Origin: Traorella massiliensis
Lineage (GTDB): Bacteria; Bacillota_I; Bacilli_A; Erysipelotrichales; Erysipelotrichaceae
Direction of reading: 5' to 3'
DNA: 64,000 nucleotides
Assembly: GCF_900104665.1 (NCBI RefSeq)
Contig: NZ_LT629967.1
Location: forward strand, 317,624-381,623
Shown: one piece after another, positions 5,785-45,479 of the stretch
Layout: the number at the start of each line of letters is the position of its first letter
Position numbering within the stretch: the first letter of the stretch is position 1
Notes under the pieces: model-generated
Database searches by the model: none
Told to the model about the DNA's origin: nothing
What the model saw: the letters and a program-made list of their open reading frames with translations, nothing else
Made by a program: the position numbers and the translations under genes

Positions 5785-7509
5785 TTACTCCTTTATTTCT
5801 ATATTTTCTTCTCCAAATAAATTTTTTACTAATTCTAAACTATCTTCTTCTAATTTTACTGTTGCAGCTTTAGGTAAAGTATGACTTCTTTGGCGCTGAA
5901 TAAATTCATTGATAAGTTGTTTCTGCTCTTCGTCTGTAACTGCAAATACTTTTTTCTTTTTTAATAACAGAACTTCCATGAAATCCATTAATGATCCTTG
6001 TGCATCTATTTCATTTATTTCATTGGCAATTGCTTCATTTTTTACTGAAACAATTATATATTCCTTACCACTGGCTACCACATTTATATCTCTTAACAAA
6101 TTTGCATATCTTGCCCATGCTGGACTAAGATAGTAATTAGCTATATTTTCTATTTTTGTTAAATCTTCATGTTTATAACTTTTATTAGCACCTACAAGTA
6201 GTGAAAGAAGATATTCATGATCTAACCCTTTTACTTCTTTTTTTATAGCCCTTTTATACTTAACTGTATCTTCGTTGATATCTTTTTCAACTGTTTTTAC
6301 TTCGCTTGCTACAGTATATAGGCTGTCATCTTTTGTTAAAGATATGTTTTCGATATTCACATTTTCGCTTGTTATGCTTGTTGGCTTTTCTTTGTTGATT
6401 ATTAATGTTTCACGTGAAACATTTTTATTTTCATCTGCCGTTGTCATCATATTTAATAAACAAACTTCAAAATATGACTGAATATTTGATGCAAAACGAT
6501 ATTCATCATATGTCTTTATCAACTCTTCTATCATTTGTAATCTTTCTTTTGTAGATCGTTGCAGCTTAGCGGCATGAATTTCACTCTCATTTAAAATCGT
6601 ACATAAAGACGCATCTTTTGAATAATCATGAATCACACTTTCTTTTAGAATTTCAATCAGATCGTTTGTACAACGTTTAATATCTATTCCACGTTCAACG
6701 AATTCATTGATTTTTTTCATACATCCTTTTGCATCTTGATCAGACACCATCTGTAATAGTTCTATTTTTTCAGGAACAGTAACTATACCATAGATAGCAT
6801 TTATAGCTTCACAGCTAAGTTTATCTAATGAATAGGCGATTACTTGATCTATAATACTTAATGCATCACGCATCCCTCCGTCTGCTAATTGACAAACAAG
6901 GCGTACCGCTTCTTCTTCATATTGAATATTTTCTTTTTCTAATATTATCTTTACTCTTTCCATCATATCTTTGATACTGATTTTAGTAAAATCATATTGC
7001 TGACATCTAGAAATGATAGTAGGTAATACTTTATGTGGCTCTGTTGTTGCGAAAATAAAGATAACATGAGCAGGTGGTTCTTCAATAGTTTTTAAAAGAG
7101 CATTAAATGCTCCAGAAGTCATCATATGAACCTCATCAATAATATATACTTTATATTTTCCTTTTAAAGGAGCATATTTGATCTTTTCTATTAAATCACG
7201 TACTTCATCAACACCATTATTACTTGCTGCATCGATTTCAATGATATCGGGATGATTTCCTTGCTGAGCAGCAATACAATTTTCACACTTCCCACATGGG
7301 CGAACTGTTTTACTTTCACAATTAATCGTTTTTGCAAAAATCTTCGCAATACTTGTTTTTCCTGTTCCTCTCGGACCACAAAACAGGTAAGCATGAGCAA
7401 TACGATTCTGTAGTACAGCATTTTGAAGTGTTTTAACAATATGCTTTTGACCAGCAACATCTTCAAAACTAGTTGGTCTATATTTTCGATATAATGCAAT
7501 ATAAGCCAT
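5785..7509 (-). CDS. dnaX: DNA polymerase III subunit gamma/tau
   Basis: DnaX (574 residues) is the clamp-loader ATPase that couples polymerases at the fork. The N-terminal AAA+ module shows Walker A GPRGTGKTS (about 45), a four-Cys zinc knot (CGKCENC within residues 64-79), Walker B IIDEVHMM and sensor FATTEPHKV. The C-terminal third is lysine-rich and variable, as in other tau proteins. Unusually, a perfect parS site is embedded in the coding sequence at 6406-6421, read as the residues NVSRETL. It heads the dnaX-ybaB-recR operon and follows tadA and the SRP RNA on the same strand, the standard order near oriC. Confidence 0.97.
   Translation of the reverse strand: MAYIALYRKYRPTSFEDVAGQKHIVKTLQNAVLQNRIAHAYLFCGPRGTGKTSIAKIFAKTINCESKTVRPCGKCENCIAAQQGNHPDIIEIDAASNNGVDEVRDLIEKIKYAPLKGKYKVYIIDEVHMMTSGAFNALLKTIEEPPAHVIFIFATTEPHKVLPTIISRCQQYDFTKISIKDMMERVKIILEKENIQYEEEAVRLVCQLADGGMRDALSIIDQVIAYSLDKLSCEAINAIYGIVTVPEKIELLQMVSDQDAKGCMKKINEFVERGIDIKRCTNDLIEILKESVIHDYSKDASLCTILNESEIHAAKLQRSTKERLQMIEELIKTYDEYRFASNIQSYFEVCLLNMMTTADENKNVSRETLIINKEKPTSITSENVNIENISLTKDDSLYTVASEVKTVEKDINEDTVKYKRAIKKEVKGLDHEYLLSLLVGANKSYKHEDLTKIENIANYYLSPAWARYANLLRDINVVASGKEYIIVSVKNEAIANEINEIDAQGSLMDFMEVLLLKKKKVFAVTDEEQKQLINEFIQRQRSHTLPKAATVKLEEDSLELVKNLFGEENIEIKE
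6406..6421. promoter_or_regulatory. parS site inside dnaX
   Basis: TGTTTCACGTGAAACA is a perfect 16-bp palindrome identical to the bacterial parS consensus bound by ParB/Spo0J for origin segregation and SMC loading. It lies about 13 kb from oriC, within the usual parS range. Confidence 0.93.
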
Positions 7510-33871: not shown

Positions 33872-34295
33872 AAAATATTTGATTATTGATAAAGAAGTAT
33901 TACCTGATTATTTTGAAAAAGTAGTGGATGCGAAAAATATGGTCAATTCCGGTATGGACGTCAGCAAAGCTGTAAAAACAGTAGGGATCTCAAGAAGTAC
34001 GTACTATAAATATAAAGACTATGTATTTACACCACAAGAAGATCTTACAGGAAAGAAAGCCATTATTTCATTACTATTAAAAAATGAAAAAGGAATTCTT
34101 TCAGAAGTATTAAATGATTTATTATTAGTCAATGTCAATATTCTATCTGTAAGTCAAAGTATCATCATCAATAAAAGAGCAAGTCTGGAATTAGTCATCG
34201 ATATGGGAGAAATGCTAGAAACGATCGAACAGCTTTTACAGCGTCTATCAGACATGGATGGAGTTGTAAATGTAAGATTAGTTGCGATAGAATAA
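33864..34295 (+). CDS. ACT-domain protein, probable threonine-pathway regulator
   Basis: The 143-residue protein has an N-terminal helix-turn-helix-like segment (SGMDVSKAVKTVGISRSTYYKYKDYV, about 29-54) and a C-terminal ACT domain (ISLLLKNEKGILSEVLNDLLLVNVNILSVSQ). This layout matches the PheB/ThrR-like family, amino-acid-sensing regulators next to thr or phe genes. The start is the ATG at 33864 after AGGAGGAG, inside the end of thrB. By context it should sense threonine and act on the hom/thrC gap. Confidence 0.85.
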   Translation: MIEKYLIIDKEVLPDYFEKVVDAKNMVNSGMDVSKAVKTVGISRSTYYKYKDYVFTPQEDLTGKKAIISLLLKNEKGILSEVLNDLLLVNVNILSVSQSIIINKRASLELVIDMGEMLETIEQLLQRLSDMDGVVNVRLVAIE

Positions 34296-34311
34296 AATTC
34301 ACGTGAATTTT
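34294..34311. repeat. Palindrome with parS-like core after the thr operon
   Basis: AAAATTCACGTGAATTTT is a perfect 18-base palindrome whose central TTCACGTGAA equals the parS core, but the outer bases differ. It could fold as a weak terminator hairpin with an ACGT loop. The same core recurs at 37521 and 38952. Confidence 0.6.
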
Positions 34312-34423
34312 AATTTGTAGTATATTTTACTTGAATTTATAATGTTGAGTAAGGACGAAAAGTAGTACTTAATCGAAAAGAAAAAGAAGAGATTTTAAAT
34401 AAAAAAGTTAAATAAAAAAAATG

Positions 34424-34445
34424 AGCGCACTAAAAACAAGTGCAC
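34424..34445 (-). terminator. Probable terminator of the IS transposase
   Basis: GCACT and AGTGC pair over a seven-base loop, with a T-rich run a few bases beyond on the minus strand. Moderate strength. Confidence 0.5.
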
Positions 34446-34473
34446 AAATGAAATAAAATAAATTTAGCGAAAA

Positions 34474-35925
34474 TCAGGTTTCATTTTTAATCCAAGCATC
34501 AAGATGAATATTGATGGCGGCAAAGATTGAAAAGAAAGCTGCTTTGGAGTCTTCACGAATTCTCATCTGATGAAGATGATAGTCATTGAGAATTCTATTA
34601 TTGATTCTCTCAGTACAAGTTCTATTTTTGTATAGTTCTTTCCATTTATCTGTTTTGTAAGGAACAGGGCCAAAAAGACGCATATCAAGCGAATCGTTAA
34701 TGTAAACAGTTCTACCATATGGAGAAGGAGAACATGTATCTGCATGTGGACAAGAATCAATCAATCCCATTTTTAGAGGACAACGGAATTTTCTTCTTTG
34801 CCTTTGATAGTCGTAGCCACAGTGATACATTTCAACACCACAATCACAAATTGGTTTGCCGTTTTCACTAATAGAATCAAAGTGTTTATAAATATTTTTA
34901 CCCAATTTACGTTGATTGAAATCAATGATTGGGATAATATTATGGTGACGCAGAAATTGGTAAACGGCAGAAGAATCGCTTGCGGAATCGAAACACATGA
35001 ATTTTGGAGAGAGTTCAGGGTTAATATCAAGGAAACGAGCGGTAGAGGAAATGGAAGACAGAGCATCATGACGAGAAGCTTTCTCTAAATCGATAAAGAC
35101 GGGAAGGTCAGTATGGATTAGAGGGTTATGATAAGAAATGTTATAGAGAGTATAACCGAAGTAATACATTCCAAGATCACTGTCCCAACCAAAATCTGCG
35201 TTTTTAGCGCTATAACGATGAGTGTTTAAAATATTGTCATCTTTAATGATTTGATGACCAAAAGGAGAAGCATGAATATGAAAAGCAGAACCATCACCAG
35301 AAAAGACAAGATTGTAGGAATCAATAAAGCCCATGTCATGAGAAGGAATGACAGCAATAGCGTTAAAAAGTAATTGAAGAGTATAAATCATACGATCACG
35401 GTCAAAAACAGAACCATCATGAGTGTAATTATCGAAAAGAGAATAAGTATCATCATTAGAGAAGTTCATTAATTTTTCACCTTTCTTAGGTTTAGAAGAA
35501 TTAGATTTATTCGTAAAAAGGCCTTTAGGAAGAAGATCGTTATGGTGAGAAAAAGAATGAGTGATACGGTTAATGAAATCGTAATGAGAAGAATGGTTAG
35601 GAACATTCCAAGAACCGATAAGATATTGAAGAAGCCTATCGTGATGAACTTCATAACACCAATTTTTAAGAGAAGTAAAACCAAGATGAAGCATCAAAAC
35701 GACAGAACGCAAATAGATAGCAGGATCGTTAGCGGGACGACCCAAAGGAGAATATAAAGGAAAGATGATATCGGCGACAAGGTCGACATCAAGTTTAGAC
35801 AACTTATGAATAGCAGACTTAAAATTAGGAGAAGAAAGTCTGAAAAGATCAGAAGTTGAAAGAGAAGACTTTTCTGTCTTAAGAAATTCTTTGTAATCTT
35901 GAGACGAAGAGAAATAAATTAACAT
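34474..35925 (-). CDS. DDE transposase of an unclassified IS element
   Basis: The 483-residue protein is an intact DDE transposase. An N-terminal domain (LGRPANDPAIYLRSVVLMLHLGF) resembles IS1182/IS5-type leading domains. Candidate catalytic residues are the Asp in VFSGDGSAFH (about 212), the Asp in MCFDSASDSS (about 310) and the Glu in CTERINNRILNDYH (about 448). A Cys cluster between the second and third (CDCGVEMYHCG...CPLK...CPHADTC) suggests a zinc-binding insert. I could not find clear terminal repeats. It lies just upstream of the regulated island and may have displaced its first promoter. Confidence 0.82.
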   Translation of the reverse strand: MLIYFSSSQDYKEFLKTEKSSLSTSDLFRLSSPNFKSAIHKLSKLDVDLVADIIFPLYSPLGRPANDPAIYLRSVVLMLHLGFTSLKNWCYEVHHDRLLQYLIGSWNVPNHSSHYDFINRITHSFSHHNDLLPKGLFTNKSNSSKPKKGEKLMNFSNDDTYSLFDNYTHDGSVFDRDRMIYTLQLLFNAIAVIPSHDMGFIDSYNLVFSGDGSAFHIHASPFGHQIIKDDNILNTHRYSAKNADFGWDSDLGMYYFGYTLYNISYHNPLIHTDLPVFIDLEKASRHDALSSISSTARFLDINPELSPKFMCFDSASDSSAVYQFLRHHNIIPIIDFNQRKLGKNIYKHFDSISENGKPICDCGVEMYHCGYDYQRQRRKFRCPLKMGLIDSCPHADTCSPSPYGRTVYINDSLDMRLFGPVPYKTDKWKELYKNRTCTERINNRILNDYHLHQMRIREDSKAAFFSIFAAINIHLDAWIKNET

Positions 35926-36028
35926 TGAAGATCACCACCTACTTACTACAGAAAGGCGAGCAAAGCGAGCCCGCAACGAGGGCGATTTGTCAAGCAAAAA
36001 GTGAAAAAAGTTGGGGGGATTTCAAAAA

Positions 36029-36093
36029 AACGGCAATTAAAAAAGAGCGTAAACAAGCCGTTAAAATGTTTTCGACCACGCTCATGTTTACAA
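36029..36093 (+). other. Leader with competing inverted repeats before the secreted peptide gene
   Basis: Three inverted repeats interlock: AACGGC/GCCGTT (36029-36034, 36057-36062), GAGCGT/ACGCTC (36045-36050, 36078-36083) and GTAAACA/TGTTTAC (36049-36055, 36085-36091). They cannot all form at once. The stretch GAGCGTAAACAAG resembles the cre-like motif of the other three island promoters, but no -10 box precedes it, perhaps because of the nearby transposon. Confidence 0.4.
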
Positions 36094-36108: not shown

Positions 36109-36279
36109 ATGAAAAAATACTTATCAGCATTATTAACTCTATTGTTAACAGCAATGATATGCACTCCAGGACATTGTACTCATGTGCATACAGAAGAATG
36201 CGGGGAAGATGGAGTTAACTGTACACATACTTGTGAAGAGTGTGTAGAGCCTTACCAAGACAAATGGCCGGATGATTAA
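36109..36279 (+). CDS. Small secreted Cys/His-rich peptide
   Basis: A 56-residue product starts at 36109 right after AAAGGAGGATCACGAAT; a longer frame from 36001 has no ribosome site. Residues 1-17 form a signal-like hydrophobic helix (MKKYLSALLTLLLTAMI). The rest is short, acidic and rich in Cys and His: CTHVHTEEC, then CTHTCEEC, ending PYQDKWPDD. The spacing recalls the C..HTHTEEC metal-binding repeats of Gram-positive surface proteins. Six Cys (18, 23, 31, 38, 42, 45) could bind metal or form disulfides. The last codons overlap the start of the XRE-TPR regulator. No family is recognised; a signalling peptide or a metal-binding secreted factor are both possible. Confidence 0.75.
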   Translation: MKKYLSALLTLLLTAMICTPGHCTHVHTEECGEDGVNCTHTCEECVEPYQDKWPDD

Positions 36280-37519
36280 GAATATGAATGATAAAGAGAT
36301 AGCATATTTGATTCATTTCTCTCGTAAAGAGAAAAATATAAGTCAAAAGAAATTAGGTGAACTTACTGGAATCAGTCATCAGATCATTTCTCGCTATGAA
36401 AACGGAGCTGAAGTTCCTACAGAAGAAAAACTTCAGCTCATTTTAAGTGCACTGAATGTCAGTTTAGAAGAAGTAATTGAAACAAGTAAGGAAATCAATA
36501 AGATCTTTGATAATTTATTAGATGATTTGTTTTATAGAAAAGCAGATTATGAAAAATATCATATAGTCATTCAAGAAAATAAAAATTGTTATCAACAAAA
36601 TTATGATTATTATAAAATAATGGTAATGGAATTGATTTATCATATTCATTATAGGAATAATGAGGAAGTTAATTCATTAATTTGTAGCTTTGAAAAAAAA
36701 GAAATTCAAGATCAAAAAATACTACAGATTTACTATGAATATAAAGGTTATTATTTATTAAAAAAGAAAAAAACAAAGGAAGGTTTAGAATATTTAGAAA
36801 AAGCAAAACTTCAGCGATATGATGAAAAAACAATCGCTATGATTCATTATCATATGAGCTTTGCGTATAACTATGAGTGGCTTAGAAAAACCGATGCGGA
36901 ATATTTAATAGATGCGAAAAATGTTTTTCAAAAATATTATTCACTTAAAAGAGTATCCGATTGTGAAATGATATTAGGAAATTATTATTCGACATTTCGC
37001 AATTTTCAAAAAGCAATTAGTTGTTATGAAAATCGTTTAAAACTACTAGAGATATTGGATGAAAATAAAGAAAAAATTTTAGATATTCACACAACAATTG
37101 CATTTAAATATATACAATTAAAAGATTATAATAGAGCGTTAAAAGAAATGGATATCGCATGCAAATATGGAAAAATAGATAAAAGAGATTATTTACAATA
37201 TATATGGTGTTATTATAAGCTAGGAGATATAAATAATGCGAACAGATGGCTCGTGAAAATGAATCGTTTAGATTTGGATCGAGAATTAAAAATGTTATGG
37301 AATCTATATGAAATGATCGTAGCACAATATGATAAAGTACCAAATGATCGATTGATAGAAAAAGCAATCAAAGTATATGAATACTATAAAAATCAAGAAG
37401 ATTTATCGTTATCAATATTTTATATTGATATTGTGATAGAACTTTTAGAAAAAAGAAAAGATTATGAAAAAGGATTTTTCTATCAAAAAGAAAAAATATT
37501 TTTACTGGAAAACATATAA
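36272..37519 (+). CDS. XRE-family regulator with TPR domain (RNPP-like)
   Basis: The 415-residue protein has an N-terminal XRE helix-turn-helix (NISQKKLGELTGISHQIISRYENGAEVPTEEKL, about residues 20-52). A long all-helical region of TPR-like repeats follows (ENRLKLLEILDENKEKILDIHTTIAFKYIQLKDYNRALKEMD). This is the plan of RNPP regulators (Rgg, PlcR, PrgX), which bind small exported peptides through the TPR part. The start overlaps the stop of the secreted-peptide gene (ATGATTAA); an alternative ATG is at 36284. A truncated second copy of its C-terminus lies at 38855. Peptide binding is inferred from architecture. Confidence 0.85.
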   Translation: MIKNMNDKEIAYLIHFSRKEKNISQKKLGELTGISHQIISRYENGAEVPTEEKLQLILSALNVSLEEVIETSKEINKIFDNLLDDLFYRKADYEKYHIVIQENKNCYQQNYDYYKIMVMELIYHIHYRNNEEVNSLICSFEKKEIQDQKILQIYYEYKGYYLLKKKKTKEGLEYLEKAKLQRYDEKTIAMIHYHMSFAYNYEWLRKTDAEYLIDAKNVFQKYYSLKRVSDCEMILGNYYSTFRNFQKAISCYENRLKLLEILDENKEKILDIHTTIAFKYIQLKDYNRALKEMDIACKYGKIDKRDYLQYIWCYYKLGDINNANRWLVKMNRLDLDRELKMLWNLYEMIVAQYDKVPNDRLIEKAIKVYEYYKNQEDLSLSIFYIDIVIELLEKRKDYEKGFFYQKEKIFLLENI

Positions 37520-37608: not shown

Positions 37609-37664
37609 AATTTTATAAACGAATTAAACAAAATAACAAGGTAAAGTATCATGTGAAAACGAAT

Positions 37665-37706
37665 TTGTTTTGAAAACTATTATATATTATAATGTAAGCG
37701 TAAACA
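37665..37706 (+). promoter_or_regulatory. Island promoter P1 with cre-like site
   Basis: TTGTTT (37665-37670), 17 bases, TATAAT (37688-37693). TGTAAGCGTAAACA (37693-37706) starts on the last base of the -10 box and differs from the CcpA cre consensus TGWAARCGYTWNCW only at position 10. ATCATGTGAAAACGAATTTG upstream of the -35 box is shared with P2. Confidence 0.75.
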
Positions 37707-37778: not shown

Positions 37779-37823
37779 ATGAAATCAACTTATGAAGAAT
37801 TAGAAAGACTGATATTGGATTAG
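37779..37823 (+). CDS. 14-codon micro-ORF (copy 1)
   Basis: ATG at 37779 follows a very strong AAGGAGGAGG site by eight bases and gives MKSTYEELERLILD, then TAG. The peptide is charged and amphipathic, with no signal or membrane segment. It has its own promoter (P1). The sequence and stop position are kept in copy 2 at 39186, where the last residue is Glu. It could be a cytosolic regulatory peptide, a translational leader, or the residue of a longer peptide gene. No known family is recognised. Confidence 0.55.
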   Translation: MKSTYEELERLILD

Positions 37824-37979: not shown

Positions 37980-38192
37980 ATGATAATAAAAAAATTTCGT
38001 AATTTATTGATATTTACTTTGGTACTTTCATGTTTTGTTCAGAAAACATATGCAATTGATGAAATAGAAGAAGATCCTTATAAAGTAACTATTAATTTCA
38101 GTAATAATATAAAAAAAGAATATGTTTATCCCGAAGCAGCAAAAAATCAGGCAGTTCAAGATTTTATGCTTACATTAAGAGTTTTAGAGTGA
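37980..38192 (+). CDS. Small secreted protein, unknown
   Basis: The 70-residue product starts at the ATG at 37980 behind TTGGAGGAAAAT; a TTG nine bases into that site is not used. A signal peptide (MIIKKFRNLLIFTLVLSCFVQKTYA) should be cut after Ala25. The mature part is short and begins acidic, IDEIEEDPYK, followed by VTINFSNNIKKEYVYPEAAKN. It has no recognised family. The lipoprotein gene starts 14 bases after its stop, so the two are cotranscribed. Confidence 0.7.
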   Translation: MIIKKFRNLLIFTLVLSCFVQKTYAIDEIEEDPYKVTINFSNNIKKEYVYPEAAKNQAVQDFMLTLRVLE

Positions 38193-38206: not shown

Positions 38207-38614
38207 ATGAAGAAGACTAGTAGTGAAAATTTCATGAGGAAAGCTATATTGTTTGTTTTATGTTTTTTACTCTTTTCTTGTTCGGGAAAAAGTGAAAAAC
38301 AATCCACGGTTGAATCAGTAATAGAAAACTATTTTGCTTGTTTAGAGAAAGGAAATCTTGAAAAACTGAATGAACTTAGAGCAATTCCATTATCAACCGA
38401 AGGATTGGCTTCTATAAATTGCTTTGAATCAATAAAAATTACTGATATGAATTTTCAGGAAAATGATGATGGTACAGTACAAGTAAATGTTGAGTTCGAT
38501 GTTAAACATAAGGAAGACATGTATTCACCATTTAATGAAGGATCAAATCACACCACTTTCGAATTAAAGATGGTAGATGATGAATGGAAGGTAGCAAGTA
38601 TAGGAAACGCTTAA
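38207..38614 (+). CDS. Small lipoprotein with NTF2/DUF4878-like domain
   Basis: The 135-residue protein starts after ATAGGAGGCATGT. The N-terminus has a hydrophobic signal (ILFVLCFLLFSCSGKSEKQ) whose LFSC is a slightly off-consensus lipobox, so it is probably anchored outside the membrane. The mature domain begins STVESVIENYFACLEKGNLEKLNELRA, typical of DUF4878/SnoaL-like folds, and ends in a beta-rich DEWKVASIG. Such proteins often accompany peptide export or immunity genes. The function is unknown. Confidence 0.75.
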   Translation: MKKTSSENFMRKAILFVLCFLLFSCSGKSEKQSTVESVIENYFACLEKGNLEKLNELRAIPLSTEGLASINCFESIKITDMNFQENDDGTVQVNVEFDVKHKEDMYSPFNEGSNHTTFELKMVDDEWKVASIGNA

Positions 38615-38639: not shown

Positions 38640-38852
38640 AATTTATTCCTATTTGACTGTGTTCCAGACATAAGAAATGTTTGACAGTCTAAAAACGAGG
38701 ATAGCCTAGAACTATGAAGCCTAACCATAGATTGTAAGGGTAATGAGGATGGTTTCAAATAAATTTACGAATGGAAGAAATTTTAAGAGAAGAGAACTTA
38801 AAGATGGCAATCAAAAAGTCAAGTAGAACAAAGAAGCATTTGGAGTGTACAC
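38640..38852 (+). pseudogene. Probable group II intron remnant (start of reverse transcriptase)
   Basis: A stretch with phrases like CCTAGAACTATGAAGCC is followed by ATG GAA GAA (38772 on), reading MEEILREENLKMAIKK. If one A is restored after that point the frame continues VK*NKEAF, close to the group II intron maturase opening VKxNKGAxG. The piece is cut off where the regulator remnant begins. I call it a decayed intron fragment; the match is from memory of the family's shape. Confidence 0.45.
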
Positions 38853-38854
38853 GC

Positions 38855-38950
38855 ATTGATATCGTCATTGAACTTTTAGAAAAAAGAAGTGAATATAAAA
38901 TAGGATTTTTCTATCAAAAAGAGAAAATATTTTTGTTAGAAAATATGTAA
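38855..38950 (+). pseudogene. C-terminal remnant of a second XRE-TPR regulator
   Basis: The frame reads IDIVIELLEKRSEYKIGFF, then YQKEKIFLLENM before TAA, matching the last 31 residues of the intact regulator (37425-37519) with a few changes. The following TTCACGTGAA, hairpin, promoter and micro-ORF are also duplicated, so a whole cassette was copied and then truncated. Confidence 0.85.
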
Positions 38951-38951
38951 A

Positions 38952-38961
38952 TTCACGTGAA
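38952..38961. repeat. TTCACGTGAA palindrome after the regulator remnant
   Basis: Same ten-base palindrome and context as at 37521. Confidence 0.5.
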
Positions 38962-39095
38962 AAGTGTATGTTGTATACCAACAAGGAAAGAAAATTGTTT
39001 GTGAATAAAGGACACATAACACCTTTCTTTCTTTTTTTGTAACTTTAAAAAGAAATTAAATAAAATTATGATATATATATCACGTGAAAATGAAT

Positions 39096-39138
39096 TTGTA
39101 TTTGAAAACAATTACATTTTATAATGTAAGCGTAAATA
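39096..39138 (+). promoter_or_regulatory. Island promoter P2 with cre-like site
   Basis: TTGTAT (39096-39101), 18 bases, TATAAT (39120-39125). TGTAAGCGTAAATA (39125-39138) takes the same place as in P1. ATCACGTGAAAATGAATTTG upstream parallels P1. Confidence 0.75.
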
Positions 39139-39185
39139 AAAGATAGATCGATCATCTTTAAGATTACAAGGAGGAGGAAATCATA

Positions 39186-39230
39186 ATGAAATCAACTTAT
39201 GAAGAATTAGAAAGACTGATTTTAGAATAG
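39186..39230 (+). CDS. 14-codon micro-ORF (copy 2)
   Basis: MKSTYEELERLILE behind the same AAGGAGGAGG site and promoter layout as copy 1. The DNA after the stop codon is unlike that after copy 1, while the codons up to the stop are nearly identical. A short broken frame at 39303-39374 (MKKFENIKFLVLYV...) downstream looks like a damaged signal peptide; I do not count it as a gene. Confidence 0.55.
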   Translation: MKSTYEELERLILE

Positions 39231-39449
39231 AGTTCGAGGATATATATAAGAACAGCTAAATTAATTTAAAGGAGCTAACTATATAAAAATCAAGAGAATT
39301 AGATGAAAAAGTTTGAAAATATAAAATTTCTAGTTTTGTATGTTAGCTGGAGCTGTTCTTTGAAAAGTGAATAGTGATTTGTACTTTTTGGGCATGATGA
39401 AAACAACCTTGATGAAGGGAATTTCTAAAATTTGTTTGAAGTTAATTAT

Positions 39450-40634
39450 TTATCTTAACAAATCAGGATTAAATGGCTGATTCGTAGTGACTAAATGATA
39501 GATAACTCTAAGCAGCTTTCTTACACAGTGTCCTTGAGCACAGCGATGTCCCTTGCCTTGAGAGATCTTAAGCTGATAGTATTCCTTGAATACAGGATTG
39601 CATCGAATAACTGTCAGTATGATCTGATACAAGGTCTTTCGAAGATACTTTGATCCTTTCTTGGCAATAGCTGTATGCTGTGCAGCAAACTGACTTGATT
39701 CGTAATGGTAAGGGGCCACCCCTGCAGCCTTTATGATTTTTCTTGCATTAGAATAGTTGCTTATATCTCCTAATTCCGCTAAAATAGAAGTACCAGAGAA
39801 ATGAGAAATTCCTGGTATGGAGAGGATAGGAGAGTTTGTCTTGAGCGAGAACTCTTCTATTTTTTTATCTATTTCAGTAATTTGCTCATGGATCAATTCT
39901 ATTTGATCGACCAGATGTCTGATCTGAATAACGTCTGCTGATGAAGGAATTCCAACAGAGGATTTTGCACGATCCTTAAGCATTTCAGGGGTTAAAGAAA
40001 TACGTCTTCCTCTGCCTTTGTATTCAAAGCATCGACGAATCCTTCTTATATCAGCATTAGCGATAGCTTCAGCACTGCCAAAAGTTTTAAGCACCGCCAT
40101 ATATACACGGCTATATTTGGAATCAAACAGACTGTTGAATTCAGGGAATACAATATCAATACACCTTTGCAGGCGGTTTGAGTAGACATTGAGCTCTTCC
40201 TTCAGATTATGATGATGTCTGGTTAACTGTTTCTGTTCATAAAGATCGAAGCTGTTAACTTTCGTGATACGATACTGCTTTTTACGTTCTGGAGTATCCA
40301 GGACATCACAAATAGTCAAAGTGTCGAGCTTATCATTTTTGGTAATACCACCTTGCATTTTACGGGAAAAATCAGTGGTTGTAGGATTGATAAGAGCAAC
40401 GGAGAAGTTTCTATCCAGAAGAAATCTCAACAAAGCAAAATGATAGTGTCCGGTATCTTCCATACCAATTAAGATAGATTTTTTAGAGTAAGGTTTAAGA
40501 TTTTGAATAAGCAGATCAAAGCCATGTTTATCATTAGAGAAAGAAGCAGGGTGAACGATAAGTTCTCCGGTATCTTTATCCATGATACAAAAGAAGTGTT
40601 TATTCTTTCCAATGTCGATTCCAACTAATTTCAT
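39450..40634 (-). CDS. IS110-family transposase
   Basis: The 394-residue recombinase has the IS110 plan. An N-terminal RuvC-like DEDD domain opens with VGIDIGKNKHFFCIMD and carries GMEDTGHYHFALLRFLL and the KNDKLDT block. A coiled-coil middle follows, then a C-terminal domain with SIPGISHFSGTSILAELGD and AAGVAPYHYESSQF, the likely Ser site. The start is set at 40634 (AGAAAGGA upstream); an ATG 48 bases earlier has no site. IS110 enzymes use an element-encoded bridge RNA to choose donor and target. The frame is intact. Confidence 0.93.
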   Translation of the reverse strand: MKLVGIDIGKNKHFFCIMDKDTGELIVHPASFSNDKHGFDLLIQNLKPYSKKSILIGMEDTGHYHFALLRFLLDRNFSVALINPTTTDFSRKMQGGITKNDKLDTLTICDVLDTPERKKQYRITKVNSFDLYEQKQLTRHHHNLKEELNVYSNRLQRCIDIVFPEFNSLFDSKYSRVYMAVLKTFGSAEAIANADIRRIRRCFEYKGRGRRISLTPEMLKDRAKSSVGIPSSADVIQIRHLVDQIELIHEQITEIDKKIEEFSLKTNSPILSIPGISHFSGTSILAELGDISNYSNARKIIKAAGVAPYHYESSQFAAQHTAIAKKGSKYLRKTLYQIILTVIRCNPVFKEYYQLKISQGKGHRCAQGHCVRKLLRVIYHLVTTNQPFNPDLLR

Positions 40635-40860
40635 GATATAAAATCCTTTCTTTAAAATACGTGAAAATGGTATCCACAACACTTAAACCACAAAACCTGG
40701 TTCAAAATACGAATTCAAAGACTCATCTAACTCATCATTATTTAGGAATAAGGTGTGGTAAGAACCTCCTTAAAGTAGTCAAGCCACAAGGAATAATACA
40801 AATCCACATTCACATTATTCAATTTTACAGATTAACAAAACCGTAATCAACCACGGTTTA
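40635..40860 (-). ncRNA. Candidate bridge-RNA region of the IS110 element
   Basis: In IS110-group elements the non-coding end before the recombinase gene encodes the bridge RNA. This 226-base stretch is non-coding and holds a hairpin, AACCGT/ACGGTT over eight bases (about 40838-40857), plus further AACC/GGTT pairings near 40685-40715. Loop assignments and the element's outer ends cannot be fixed by eye. Confidence 0.4.
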
Positions 40861-40935: not shown

Positions 40936-41379
40936 ATGATAAAAAAAGCAGTTAAAATAATTAGTATATTATGTTTAGCATTAGGTACTTTTTGCACAGT
41001 AAATTTAACATCAGTCAGTGCCAAAAGTGAAAATGTTACTCCATATGCGCTTGTAACAGTCAGAAATGTTGATAAAACGATTACAGTAAATAATACAGGC
41101 ATAGATCCTGGCAATACAGTAACATTTACTTATAAACTAGAAGGCAGTTATTTACTATCGAATAATGGTGGTTTCTATAGTGTATCGGATGTAGATTTAG
41201 CGTTTAGTAGTGTTTCAGTTAAAATTAACGGTAGTTCAACATCTGTTATATATGGAAGAATTATTAATGTAAATAGAACTATAGGTTCTAAAAATGTAAC
41301 TATAACTTATACATTACAGTATAGATTCTCAGGTAGTAGTACATGGAGAACAGTGGAGGATAAATCTATAACAGTATAG
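40936..41379 (+). CDS. Secreted beta-rich protein, unknown
   Basis: The 147-residue protein starts MIKKAVKIISILCLALGTFC with a signal peptide ending near SVSA-KSE (about residue 29). The mature part is Thr/Ser/Val-rich and beta-like (TVRNVDKTITVNNTGIDPGN, later NVTITYTLQYRFSGSSTWRTVEDKSITV). It has no anchor, so it is probably released. Its broken paralogue lies at 37843. It is probably the cargo or partner of the island. The transposon upstream may have cut it off from promoter P2. No family is recognised. Confidence 0.75.
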   Translation: MIKKAVKIISILCLALGTFCTVNLTSVSAKSENVTPYALVTVRNVDKTITVNNTGIDPGNTVTFTYKLEGSYLLSNNGGFYSVSDVDLAFSSVSVKINGSSTSVIYGRIINVNRTIGSKNVTITYTLQYRFSGSSTWRTVEDKSITV

Positions 41380-41596: not shown

Positions 41597-43201
41597 ATGA
41601 ATTTTTTTAAAAGAGGGGTTCTTAGTATAATTCGAAAACCTTCTAAATCATTACTGTTGTTTATGATTGTGTTTTTGCTTGGGAATTTAGTATGTGGATC
41701 ACAAGCGATCATGCAAGCGACAGTTTCGGTGAAAAATGATATTAAACAACAATTAGGGGCTTTGATCACGATTCACGCTAATAGTGAAATGAATGAGGAT
41801 TTGGTGGATTATATTACATTTGGAGATAATAAAATAGATAGTAAACTATTAAAAGTAGTTGATGTTTTTGAGGAAGTAAGTAATCGTGATGAAGTTCAGT
41901 ATAGTGATTATATGTATCGGTATAATGAGTATGAATCACGTGAAATATTTAATCCTGCATATGATAATATTAGTGTTGTTGAAGATATCGATCCTCTTAC
42001 AAATTTATCGATCATGGGTGTAAGTCAGTCATATTTTGGAGATATTAAATATGGAAGAATATCTATAGTAGAAGGAAGATCTTTTAGTGAAGAAGAAATC
42101 GCTTCTCAGAAAAAGGTTATTATATTGAATGAAGCGTTTAAAGGAGTAAATGATACTTGTGAATATGTTTCATATGAGTATTTAGAGGAATATGGTGAAA
42201 GTTATTATGTTTGTAACAGAGATGAAAGGGATTTAGAAATTGGTGATAAAGTAACACTTGTTAGGCAGTTACGATCAACTAATGATGATTTATGGATGGG
42301 ATTTGGGAACTATGATGTATATTATGAAGATCAAGTGGAATATGAGATCATAGGATTTTATAAAGAACTTACAGAATACAGGGATAATAGCTTTAGTCCA
42401 TCGTATATAGATATTAATGGCAGTCCAGCGATGAGTTATACTTCTTTAATGGATGGTGATGCCTATATACCTGTCAGTTCAATGATGGAAGATATCAATG
42501 AATTTCAAATATATGATGATCAGTATCGTTCAGAAAATAGTGAAATTTTAAAAACAAATAATTTATCATTAAGTTCATTATCAATTGAATTAAATGATCC
42601 GGAAATGCTTGATGAATTTATGAAGTCGGTAGAGTCTTTATTTTCAAGAAATGGCTTATATAATCTTGAATATTATACTTCTAGGGATACTTATAATTTA
42701 GTTGCGGGTCCAATTGAAAGTTTATCAACGATTTCAAATATCGTTTTAATTGTTTCTGTAATTGTGTCTATCATCATTTTAACGCTTGTTATTGTATTAT
42801 TTCTTAAAGATAGAAAACATGAGATTGGTATTTATGTATCATTAGGAGAAGTAAAATGGAAGATGATCACACAGATCGTTCTTGAGGTGTTTGTTGTGGC
42901 AATACTTGCTGTTAGTTTATCGTTATTAAGTGGGATAAAATTGGGAAAGGTTATATCTGATGAGGTTTTAAAATCAGCAATGATTAAAGAGGAAGAAGTT
43001 GTTGATAGTCAATTGGAGAAAATTGGTTCTGTGAATCGTGAAAATCTTCAGATGGAAGATGTAACAAGTAAAGTAACGTTTACAATGGATGTGAATTATA
43101 TCATAAGTGTATATGGAACAAGTCTGATCGTTATTGTATTATCTTCAGCTATACCAATTATGTATATTTTAAGAATGGATCCTAAGAAAATATTGATGTG
43201 A
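41597..43201 (+). CDS. FtsX/MacB-type ABC transporter permease (1)
   Basis: The 534-residue permease has one N-terminal membrane span (SLLLFMIVFLLGNLVCGSQAI), a large extracellular domain (about residues 45-380), then three C-terminal spans with the FtsX-like core (IVSIIILTLVIVLFLKDRKHEIGIYVSLGE). This is the MacB topology, in which the outer domain moves substrates beyond the membrane instead of pumping them through it. GGGGAGGAGG precedes the ATG. The ATPase follows after seven bases. Permease 2 (43923) is a diverged paralogue. Substrate is unknown; a peptide is likely. Confidence 0.9.
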   Translation: MNFFKRGVLSIIRKPSKSLLLFMIVFLLGNLVCGSQAIMQATVSVKNDIKQQLGALITIHANSEMNEDLVDYITFGDNKIDSKLLKVVDVFEEVSNRDEVQYSDYMYRYNEYESREIFNPAYDNISVVEDIDPLTNLSIMGVSQSYFGDIKYGRISIVEGRSFSEEEIASQKKVIILNEAFKGVNDTCEYVSYEYLEEYGESYYVCNRDERDLEIGDKVTLVRQLRSTNDDLWMGFGNYDVYYEDQVEYEIIGFYKELTEYRDNSFSPSYIDINGSPAMSYTSLMDGDAYIPVSSMMEDINEFQIYDDQYRSENSEILKTNNLSLSSLSIELNDPEMLDEFMKSVESLFSRNGLYNLEYYTSRDTYNLVAGPIESLSTISNIVLIVSVIVSIIILTLVIVLFLKDRKHEIGIYVSLGEVKWKMITQIVLEVFVVAILAVSLSLLSGIKLGKVISDEVLKSAMIKEEEVVDSQLEKIGSVNRENLQMEDVTSKVTFTMDVNYIISVYGTSLIVIVLSSAIPIMYILRMDPKKILM

Positions 43202-43208
43202 GGTAAAT

Positions 43209-43895
43209 ATGAATATACTGGAAACAAAAGACTTATATTTTACATATCCTGATGGAGATGCACGAAAGGTGATCCTGAATGATGTGAATGTATCCTTTGA
43301 GAAGGGGAAGTTCTATACGATATTAGGGGCCAGCGGATCAGGAAAAACGACTTTTCTTTCTTTTATAGCCGCATTAGATAAACCTGAAAAAGGAGAGATT
43401 CTGTATGAGGGGAAAAGTCTGTCGGAAATAGGCTATGAGAAGTATCGAAGAAACAATGCAGGCATCGTATTTCAAAGCTATAATTTGATTCCATATATGA
43501 ATGCCGTAGAGAATGTGATGGTAGCGATGTCGATCACAGACAATGAGATGGAAAAGGATATGAAGGGACAGGCGTTAAGGATCCTGGAGAGCGTAGGAAT
43601 CGATGGGAGCAAGGCGACAAGAAGGATCAACCGGTTAAGCGGCGGAGAGCAGCAGCGGGTAGCGATTGCAAGAGCGATCTCAACGAATGTGGAAGTGGTT
43701 CTGGCAGATGAGCCGACCGGGAATCTGGATGCGAAGACGAGCGAAACGATCATCGAGATCTTTAAAGAGCTGGCACATAAACAGAACAAGTGTGTGATCA
43801 TGGTTACACACTCAGAGAAGATTGCAAATCAGAGTGATGTGATCTTGAAGCTGAATACGGATAATCAGAATTTTGAGATCACAGGTAAAGAATAA
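43209..43895 (+). CDS. ABC transporter ATPase (1)
   Basis: The 228-residue ATPase pairs with the FtsX-like permease. Walker A is GASGSGKTT (about 40-48), the Q-loop VFQSYNLIPYMN, the signature LSGGEQQRVAIARAI (about 142-156) and Walker B VVLADEPTGNLD. The MacB/LolD type is clear. The gene is richer in G and C than its permease neighbours, and its DNA is nearly identical to ATPase 2 except for one patch at 43349-43435. Confidence 0.95.
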   Translation: MNILETKDLYFTYPDGDARKVILNDVNVSFEKGKFYTILGASGSGKTTFLSFIAALDKPEKGEILYEGKSLSEIGYEKYRRNNAGIVFQSYNLIPYMNAVENVMVAMSITDNEMEKDMKGQALRILESVGIDGSKATRRINRLSGGEQQRVAIARAISTNVEVVLADEPTGNLDAKTSETIIEIFKELAHKQNKCVIMVTHSEKIANQSDVILKLNTDNQNFEITGKE

Positions 43896-43922
43896 ATCAT
43901 AATATGGGAAGATGGTGTTAGT

Positions 43923-45479
43923 ATGAATTATTTAAAAAGAATGTTTTGTAGTATAAAAAGGTGCAAATTTAAGACCTTATTATTCTTTTTAATTGTTTTT
44001 TTGCTAGGGAATTTTATATCTGCATCTATCGCAATCAATCAAGCGACTGATTCGATCAAAAGTGATATTCGTACAGAATTAGGTGCTACTATTGTTTTAA
44101 GTGCTGGAGAAGAAGTTGTGGATACTTATTTAGATTTTTTATTAGAGGGAAATTTTCAGGATGAAGAACATTTTGAATATGATAAAAGTATTATTGAAGT
44201 GTTTAATCGTTTTGAGGAAAATGAAAATGTAAGTTATATGGATTCTGTTATATATACCGCAATTTATTCAAAAGATATAAGAGAATCATTGATTGAAGAA
44301 AATGATAGCAGAGAATTTGAACCTTTAAAAATGTATAGTTTAATAGGGGAAAATGAGGCAGATTTCAAGGAGTTGAGGGAAAATAAAATCATATTGGTTT
44401 CTGGCAGGACCTTTACTGAAGAGGAAATGGCTTCAGGAGAAAAAGTAATTATTATTAGTGATGAGTTTAATCATATTACATCTCATTGTGCAAGTATTAC
44501 AGATGTGAAAGATGACTATGGAGAAGTATATAAATATGTATGTCAGCATGAAGGAGAATCGCTGGAAGTAGGGGATACAGTTCGTTTTACTAGAAAAATC
44601 AGTCTATTAGATGATCTAACTGAAACGATTGAAGAAGAGGTGGAATATGAAATAATAGGAATTTATAAAAATATTGATGAATTTGACAAAATAGGTTTTG
44701 AAGTCAGAGATCAAAGTTTGGTAAATAATATATATACACCTTATAAAACAGTAGAAAATGAAGTGAAAGAATATATTTCATTTGTGAAGGATTTTAAAGA
44801 AGAACATCCTGAAGAAGAATATTTTGAAGATTTATCGTATTATGGGATAAAATCTTTATCAATGAAGTTATCAGAGCCAGAAGAAGTTGAATATTTGGCT
44901 GAGGAAATGAATAAAGCATATGAACAGCAAGGTATCAAAGGGATCATAGTTAATGCGTCTTCTGATACATATAATGCAGTTGCAGGTCCGCTAGAGAGTT
45001 TATCAACGATTGCAAAGATGATTTTATTTTTATCTTTGGTTGTAAGCTTTATCATATTATCTCTCATTGTTTCTCTATTCTTAAAAGACAGACGTAAAGA
45101 GATAGGGTTATATTCCGCTTTAGGTGAGAAAAAGTGGAAAATCTTGCTTCAATTGATATTAGAAGTATATCTTGTAGGAATCCTGGCAATTTCTCTCTCT
45201 TTATTTACGGGCAGTAAACTTGGTGAAGCGATGTCTCAAGAAATCTTAAAGACACAAATAGAGAAAAACAGAGAAATTACTGAAGAAAAATTAGCTCAAT
45301 TAGATATCGTCAATGAAAACTTAATTGATTTAAACACAATTGAAAAAGAATATAAAATTGAAATAAATGCAGAATATATCGTTGGAATATACGTTACAGG
45401 AACATTAGTACTTATTATTTCAGGCTTTTTACCAATATGGAATACATTAAGAAAGGATCCTAAGAAAATATTGATGTGA
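43923..45479 (+). CDS. FtsX/MacB-type ABC transporter permease (2)
   Basis: The 518-residue permease shares topology and many short blocks with permease 1, such as the first span (LLFFLIVFLLGNFISASIAINQAT), the stretch before the last spans (SDTYNAVAGPLESLSTIAKM) and the final RKDPKKILM. The outer domain has diverged and is acidic. It follows ATPase 1 by 27 bases and is followed by its own ATPase after seven. Confidence 0.9.
   Translation: MNYLKRMFCSIKRCKFKTLLFFLIVFLLGNFISASIAINQATDSIKSDIRTELGATIVLSAGEEVVDTYLDFLLEGNFQDEEHFEYDKSIIEVFNRFEENENVSYMDSVIYTAIYSKDIRESLIEENDSREFEPLKMYSLIGENEADFKELRENKIILVSGRTFTEEEMASGEKVIIISDEFNHITSHCASITDVKDDYGEVYKYVCQHEGESLEVGDTVRFTRKISLLDDLTETIEEEVEYEIIGIYKNIDEFDKIGFEVRDQSLVNNIYTPYKTVENEVKEYISFVKDFKEEHPEEEYFEDLSYYGIKSLSMKLSEPEEVEYLAEEMNKAYEQQGIKGIIVNASSDTYNAVAGPLESLSTIAKMILFLSLVVSFIILSLIVSLFLKDRRKEIGLYSALGEKKWKILLQLILEVYLVGILAISLSLFTGSKLGEAMSQEILKTQIEKNREITEEKLAQLDIVNENLIDLNTIEKEYKIEINAEYIVGIYVTGTLVLIISGFLPIWNTLRKDPKKILM

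Follow-up and report, generated by a model that had tools for sequence, protein, structure and literature searches.

Organisation of the locus

The window analysed here is a stretch of 64,000 nucleotides of the Traorella massiliensis genome (contig NZ_LT629967.1, positions 317,624 to 381,623), in which a small open reading frame encoding a Cys/His-containing product is followed on the same strand by the gene of an XRE-TPR regulator (Table 1). The 56-residue product, MKKYLSALLTLLLTAMICTPGHCTHVHTEECGEDGVNCTHTCEECVEPYQDKWPDD, is preceded by a strong Shine-Dalgarno sequence (AAGGAGGATC), and its stop codon (36277-36279) falls within the first codons of the regulator frame, giving an overlap of 8 nt. 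The initial annotation had described a Cys/His frame with a signal-like N-terminus overlapping the start of an XRE-TPR gene, and the coordinates of the two frames, together with the strong Shine-Dalgarno sequence, bear this out. The Shine-Dalgarno sequence of the regulator is weak, and since a second in-frame ATG lies 4 nt past the peptide stop, either ATG could be its start.

Table 1. Features of the peptide-regulator locus and its surroundings (window coordinates).
Feature	Position	Strand	Basis
Native operator-promoter of the peptide-regulator operon	34295..34343	+	Sequence; same module in L029
Inserted DNA with IS1182-like transposase (34474-35925)	34344..36084 (approximate)	-	Junctions inferred by comparison with L029
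Putative propeptide gene, 56 aa	36109..36279	+	ORF; 19 homologues; purifying selection
Signal-like N-terminus, residues 1-17	36109..36159	+	Lys-Lys and hydrophobic stretch, in nearly all homologues
Cys/His core, residues 18-45	36160..36243	+	Alignment of 19 homologues
C-terminal tail (residues 46-56, VEPYQDKWPDD), from which the mature pheromone is proposed to derive	36244..36276	+	C-anchored motif
415-aa XRE-TPR regulator, putative transcription factor and receptor of the pheromone	36272..37519	+	HTH_3, NprR profile, AlphaFold2, Foldseek
Second operator AATTCACGTGAATT, overlapping the regulator stop codon	37519..37532	+	Same position in L029, L088 and L103
Downstream operator-promoter, weaker site	37645..37693	+	Intact version in L029, 7172-7220
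Tiny ORF MKSTYEELERLILD, strong Shine-Dalgarno sequence, first after the downstream promoter	37779..37823	+	ORF; similar ORF in L029
Small secreted protein, 70 aa, putative output region	37980..38192	+	ORF
Lipoprotein-like protein, 135 aa, DUF4829, putative output region	38207..38614	+	Pfam
Duplicated remnant: regulator C-terminus 38771-38950, operator copy 38950-38963, operator-promoter 39076-39125, second tiny ORF MKSTYEELERLILE 39186-39230	38771..39230	+	

Conservation of the peptide-regulator pair

Neither Pfam nor NCBIfam holds a family for the 56-residue peptide, a profile search of the PDB with it returned nothing meaningful, and the window's own genome contains no convincing second homologue. 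We searched 295 genomes of the order Erysipelotrichales with the single sequence and then with profiles, the final profile search covering all 316. Short homologues of 52-66 aa, 19 in all, were found in 12 of the 316 genomes, distributed over eight genera and two families, and the final search returned the same 19. Every one of them lies on the same strand as, and directly upstream of, a TPR regulator gene, with gaps of -26 to +85 nt; the regulators are about 360-475 aa long (18 aligned), the copy in G061 being split or interrupted in the database sequence. Since all 19 full-length short homologues carry a Shine-Dalgarno sequence and a downstream regulator, the 56-residue frame is not a chance ORF. 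The peptide is thus not unique to this genome, and, with all 19 homologues in the 12 genomes followed by a TPR regulator, no short homologue was found without one; the coupling to a regulator that the initial annotation had noticed is conserved. The named records include Traorella MAGs (of the same genus as the window's genome), Dielma fastidiosa, Clostridiales bacterium CHKCI006 and an uncultured Erysipelotrichaceae bacterium, and several divergent pairs can be present in one genome (four in Dielma, three in CHKCI006 and two in one Traorella MAG).

Outside the order, a sample of 392 genomes of the phylum yielded nothing convincing, the one weak match (E 5e-4) lying inside a 272-aa frame, and a scan of named genomes returned only CxHxH repeat matches, of which those that were fully read lie in large surface-type proteins. 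Matches in other genomes with E-values from 5e-5 to 0.01 (L018, L021, L022, L058-L063 and L068) were discarded as belonging to other long frames or to a large repeat protein. An origin of the pair from a mobile element was rejected because no relative of the peptide was present in the IMG/VR viral contigs and the regulator was unmatched in plasmid and phage collections.

A by-eye check of the homologues showed an N-terminal Lys and a hydrophobic stretch in nearly all of them, and no canonical lipobox. In the alignment, the motif HxHx3CGx5-8C (H25, H27, C31, G32 and C38) is almost invariant among the 19 peptides, the remaining Cys and His residues being common without being constant. Comparison with the orthologue of the closest relative gave a dN of 0.067 and a dS of 1.04, and hence a dN/dS of about 0.06; these two orthologues are separated by 11 synonymous changes and six amino-acid changes, all of which fall in the signal (residues 14, 16 and 17) or the tail (residues 50, 51 and 56) and none in the Cys/His core.

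The C-terminal tail and related pairs

The tail of about 11 residues is variable and anchored at the C-terminus, following the pattern [VI]xP...E.P. Counted from the C-terminus, V or I recurs at -11, P or L at -9, E at -5 and P at -3, and the residues between them vary; P or L occupies -9 in 16 of the 19 peptides, which was reached in 0 of 20,000 shuffles, while E at -5 and P at -3 are each present in 11. The distances between tails correlate with those between regulators (Mantel r 0.48; 0.34, P 0.002, without the close pair), a relationship that may come in part from common descent.

We also examined 25 further regulator matches in the same genomes for preceding peptides. Upstream of three of them lie secreted peptides whose two-Cys pro-region is unrelated, upstream of one more lies a peptide that lacks the Cys/His core, and one pro-region in these related pairs lacks any Cys/His motif; several of the regulators have no recognisable peptide in front. 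The tails VVPYGSKENDPKK, IDPLEGKYDPPKG and VSPLFQKDPPHE of these pairs resemble those of the Cys/His class, and the fourth, that of G096h, fits poorly. The two-Cys class (CVLEYNEDGT..NEEEY.KCLE) and the core-less class (...TPVSPLFQKDPPHE) are found upstream of related regulators, the further peptide classes being located at G070:C78, G096:C75 and G222:C5 (L161, L163 and L164) and at G065:C18 (L154).

Because the C-anchored tail is also carried by related pairs without the Cys/His core, we read the small protein as an RRNPP propeptide, for which the simplest arrangement would be a signal sequence, an exchangeable Cys/His spacer and a C-terminal pheromone. The initial annotation had contrasted this Cys-rich product with the Cys-poor pheromones of known systems; the contrast probably holds for the pro-region that would be discarded, and not for the signal itself; the tail is free of Cys. 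In four of the 19 systems (G096a, G054c, G065c and G112) a hairpin and T-run lie between the peptide stop and the regulator start, and these possibly attenuate the regulator relative to the peptide.

The regulator resembles RRNPP receptors

An N-terminal HTH of the DNA-binding NprR/PlcR/PrgX/Rgg type is present in the window's regulator, in which Pfam recognised HTH_3 (E 1.4e-14) and, weakly and below the cutoff, TPR repeats. In some relatives, such as G065a and G057a, the HTH looks degenerate by eye. A profile built from nine regulators matched NprR over residues 69-402, nearly the whole of its TPR domain, with an E-value of 8.6e-11, making NprR the best full-length natural match in the PDB, and it also matched RapF. 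The AlphaFold2 model of the regulator is all-helical (pLDDT 92.4, pTM 0.83), and in a Foldseek search of the PDB the best matches were Rap structures (8rtc, 3q15 and 4gyo), with Rap-pheromone complexes, RapH, NprR and the PlcR-PapR7-DNA complex (3u3w) among the top ones. The TM-scores were moderate (0.32-0.62) and other TPR proteins, LGN and OGT, were matched too, so the fold alone is not decisive; the assignment to RRNPP follows from the HTH in combination with a secreted peptide encoded next door and with NprR as a natural match. The regulator had been called RNPP-like from its sequence, and this description was sustained, with NprR found by sequence profile and Rap, NprR and PlcR by predicted fold. 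Elsewhere in its own genome the regulator matched, beyond generic HTH domains, only the 39-residue C-terminal duplicate in the remnant listed in Table 1.

In RRNPP receptors, an Asn binds the backbone of the peptide, as does N227 of RapF (PMC3601957). A column aligned with an Asn of NprR, which through NprR rather than by direct alignment to RapF would be the equivalent of N227, holds Asn in 15 of the 18 regulators; of the other three, the window's regulator and its G070 orthologue have Thr and G057a has Tyr. The G198 orthologue has Thr there as well.

Operators and promoters

The native operator-promoter module of the peptide-regulator operon consists of the palindrome AAATTCACGTGAATTT, 4 nt, a -35 box TTGTAG, 17 nt and a -10 box TATAAT. 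The same module stands directly upstream of the peptide at locus L029 of a Traorella MAG, where AAATTCACGTGAATTT ends 4 nt before TTGTAG and TATAAT follows after 17 nt; a second copy of the palindrome overlaps the regulator stop there, and a variant precedes a third promoter further downstream. The downstream module of the window has the corresponding composition of TATCATGTGAAAA, 5 nt, a -35 box TTGTTT, 17 nt and a -10 box TATAAT. Shuffling indicated that 0.01 matches to the native operator-promoter expression are expected per window, and genome-wide the site-plus-promoter pattern has four matches, of which the close ones are at the peptide-regulator locus, where two have canonical -10 boxes.

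Other systems carry other operator words at the same two places. In G096a, whose regulator is 32% identical, TTTCACGTGAA is found upstream of the peptide and again just past the regulator stop, the second copy preceding an operon that encodes a large membrane protein, a TIGR03608-like ABC ATPase and a small secreted protein; the words at both places are TTCCTAAGGAA in G096b, TGTATCGAAACA/TGTATCGATACA in G054b and GTTACACAACA/GTTACACAAAA in G015. In all, five systems have the same operator at both places, and four different words are represented among them. The same 11-mer, with at most one mismatch, occurs at both places in 5 of 17 true pairs compared to 5 of 272 mismatched combinations (P 8e-5), and palindromes with 7-8-bp arms abut the -35 box in 4 of 12 promoters against 0.13 expected; in many systems a paired operator was not found. 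Such a repeated word, ahead of the peptide gene and at the stop codon of the regulator gene, suggests that the regulator controls both its own operon and the neighbouring operon, and the position of the operator upstream of the -35 box points to activation rather than repression, so that self-activation together with control of the neighbouring genes may be envisaged.

The TTCACGTGAA palindromes were also considered as terminators, given their location behind stop codons and the presence of one tandem between convergent genes, and this reading was dropped because of the constant -35/-10 geometry and the different words at the same two places elsewhere. The tandem itself, two AATTCACGTGAATT sites between convergent aminotransferase-like and HAD-like genes with no promoter adjacent, is conserved in two genomes (G000:C7:469225-469263 and G070:C91:13587-13626).

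Downstream genes and rearrangements in the window

An insertion of about 1.7 kb sits between the native -10 box and the Shine-Dalgarno sequence of the peptide and leaves the coding sequence intact. Its transposase matches Pfam DUF772 and, weakly, DDE_Tnp_1_6, and no terminal inverted repeat of at least 14 nt was found for the inserted element. As a result of this insertion the pair in the window is without its native promoter, and the system may therefore be silent in this genome. The loss of the promoter to the insertion, the regulator remnant, the second operator set and an IS110 element together indicate that the module is probably disturbed here. The IS110-family transposase (39450-40682) follows the remnant, and the region 38771-40682 represents a rearranged second regulator 3' end with an output promoter.

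The 21-mer at the core of the tiny ORF occurred, as an exact match in the six genomes searched, only beside this regulator. ORFs of this kind, which share these 21 nt without change, with 14-16 codons (MK[SR][TV]YEELERLxL...), a strong Shine-Dalgarno sequence and no signal sequence, follow an operator-promoter in four loci, namely the two in the window (Table 1), L029 (about 7281-7328) and L088 (about 6188-6238, minus strand); a leader peptide, a second small product and an RNA element are candidates for their nature.

The genes downstream of the pairs encode secreted proteins and ABC transporters, and TIGR03608 (bacteriocin export) was the best family, below the cutoff, for one ATPase. Further along the window, 40936-41379 encodes a secreted protein of 147 aa that matches the bacteriocin-like NCBIfam family JUQZ_fam_ocin weakly and below its cutoff; in Dielma fastidiosa a homologue of it (30% over 108 aa, E 6e-11) is encoded immediately after a peptide-regulator pair. 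FtsX-type permeases and an ABC ATPase (41597-45479) lie beside this gene.

Interpretation of the pair

Taken together, these data make it likely that the pair is an RRNPP-type autoinducing quorum-sensing module with a Cys/His-containing propeptide. The 56-residue product would be exported through the Sec pathway as a propeptide composed of a signal, a Cys/His spacer and the tail of about 11 residues, and once it had been secreted and cleaved by proteases it would yield the tail, whole or in part, for re-import. This peptide would then occupy the concave TPR groove of the regulator, the product of the overlapping downstream gene. With its ligand bound, or less likely in the apo form, the regulator would bind the pair-specific palindrome, the copy upstream of the -35 box of the peptide-regulator operon allowing autoinduction and the copy at the regulator stop allowing control of adjacent operons, which often encode secreted proteins or transporters. 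The claim of a new signalling peptide-regulator pair, put forward in the initial annotation, is well supported by the conserved coupling and by the RRNPP-like profile and fold of the regulator. Several observations count against the RRNPP reading: the window's regulator has Thr in place of the conserved backbone-contact Asn; the tail is charged, whereas SHP pheromones are hydrophobic; several regulators of the family lack a recognisable preceding peptide, and a paired operator was not found in many systems; the correlation of tails with regulators may come from common descent; and the native promoter is interrupted in this genome.

The Cys/His core could serve as a processing signal, a stabilising spacer, a means of surface retention or a metal/redox gate. 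We regard it as unlikely that the core gates maturation, such that metal binding or a disulfide would control proteolysis and the release of the pheromone would depend on zinc or redox state; if this were true, the module would be an RRNPP system responding jointly to cell density and to a metal or redox cue.

A different possibility, of which the initial annotation had raised the metal-sensing form, is that the pair senses metal or redox state as such, the secreted Cys/His protein binding zinc or forming a disulfide and the regulator, told of its state, controlling metal or redox genes. The two His and two Cys could form a metal site, and the HxHx3CGx5-8C motif is almost invariant and unchanged between the closest orthologues despite their synonymous changes. 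Nonetheless, we find this distinctly improbable, since the regulator is intracellular and has the fold of a peptide receptor with its TPR groove, the adjacent genes are for secreted proteins and exporters, none recognisable as a metal-uptake gene having been seen in the loci inspected, and some related pairs have pro-regions without the core or, in one case, without any such motif. Furthermore, HxHx3CG is a common repeat in large surface proteins, and the part of the peptide that varies with the regulator is the Cys-free tail.

There is also little probability that the small protein is itself an effector, bacteriocin-like or acting at the envelope, with the downstream gene encoding its dedicated regulator, which would sense something else. 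Co-transcription of peptide and regulator is compatible with this, as are the bacteriocin-like export components (the TIGR03608-like ATPase) and small secreted proteins of the adjacent operons; however, the putative secreted outputs are separate genes behind the second operator, and the C-anchored tail, its retention where the pro-region has been exchanged, and the RRNPP-like fold agree better with a pheromone precursor. Finally, the gene overlap, the weak regulator Shine-Dalgarno sequence and the hairpin-plus-T-run in the short gap of four of the 19 systems could suggest that the small ORF acts as a leader, its translation governing the regulator through coupling or attenuation and its product having little function, but the dN/dS of about 0.06 and a protein motif conserved across genera and two families make this very improbable indeed.

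Comparison with known systems

RRNPP systems are well known and Erysipelotrichales are common gut bacteria, and our literature searches found no description of RRNPP signalling in this order. For the family described here, pheromone tails, receptors, operators and neighbouring target operons have all been predicted, and these could be tested in cultured Dielma fastidiosa, with its four pairs.

The NprR-NprX system of the Bacillus cereus group, in which a secreted propeptide with the signal at or near its C-terminus is encoded beside the receptor, shares with the quorum-sensing module proposed here the HTH and the long TPR array; it differs in that here the peptide gene lies upstream of and overlaps the receptor gene, the peptide carries a Cys/His core and the sequences are of low identity. 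PlcR-PapR and Rgg-SHP/ComRS are likewise autoregulated, with activators of the XRE-type HTH and TPR kind that act at palindromic boxes near -35, but their TPR domains are shorter, their operators are different and their propeptides are short and Cys-poor. Rap-Phr systems (Bacillus, pLS20, and the phages phi3T and phi105) gave the best Foldseek matches and share the Asn with most members of the family, although the phr gene is placed after rap, whereas here the peptide gene precedes that of the regulator. The regulator here also has an HTH, in place of which Rap proteins have a 3-helix bundle (PMC3601957).

By the criteria of RRNPP_detector, such systems comprise a propeptide of 10-100 aa with a Sec signal and a TPR receptor of about 250-500 aa encoded by adjacent genes (PMC10075063). 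The propeptide length, the receptor length, the TPRs and the adjacency are present in the pair, and the N-terminus of the peptide looks signal-like by eye. Software-based surveys add further RRNPP subfamilies, and Erysipelotrichia are not mentioned in the main text of this one (PMC10075063).

We found no description of a conserved Cys/His spacer as a propeptide feature of RRNPP systems, and its presence raises the question of conditional maturation. The core resembles one unit of the CxHxHxxxCG repeat of large Bacillota surface proteins (75% over 20 aa), a repeat covered by no Pfam family; in those proteins, such as that of Acetivibrio ethanolgignens (L036), the units are in tandem, the proteins are at least 1,000 aa long and there is no neighbouring receptor. 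The unit is a frequent and unexplained repeat there, and the role that it plays in the peptides of the present family may explain its role in the surface proteins.
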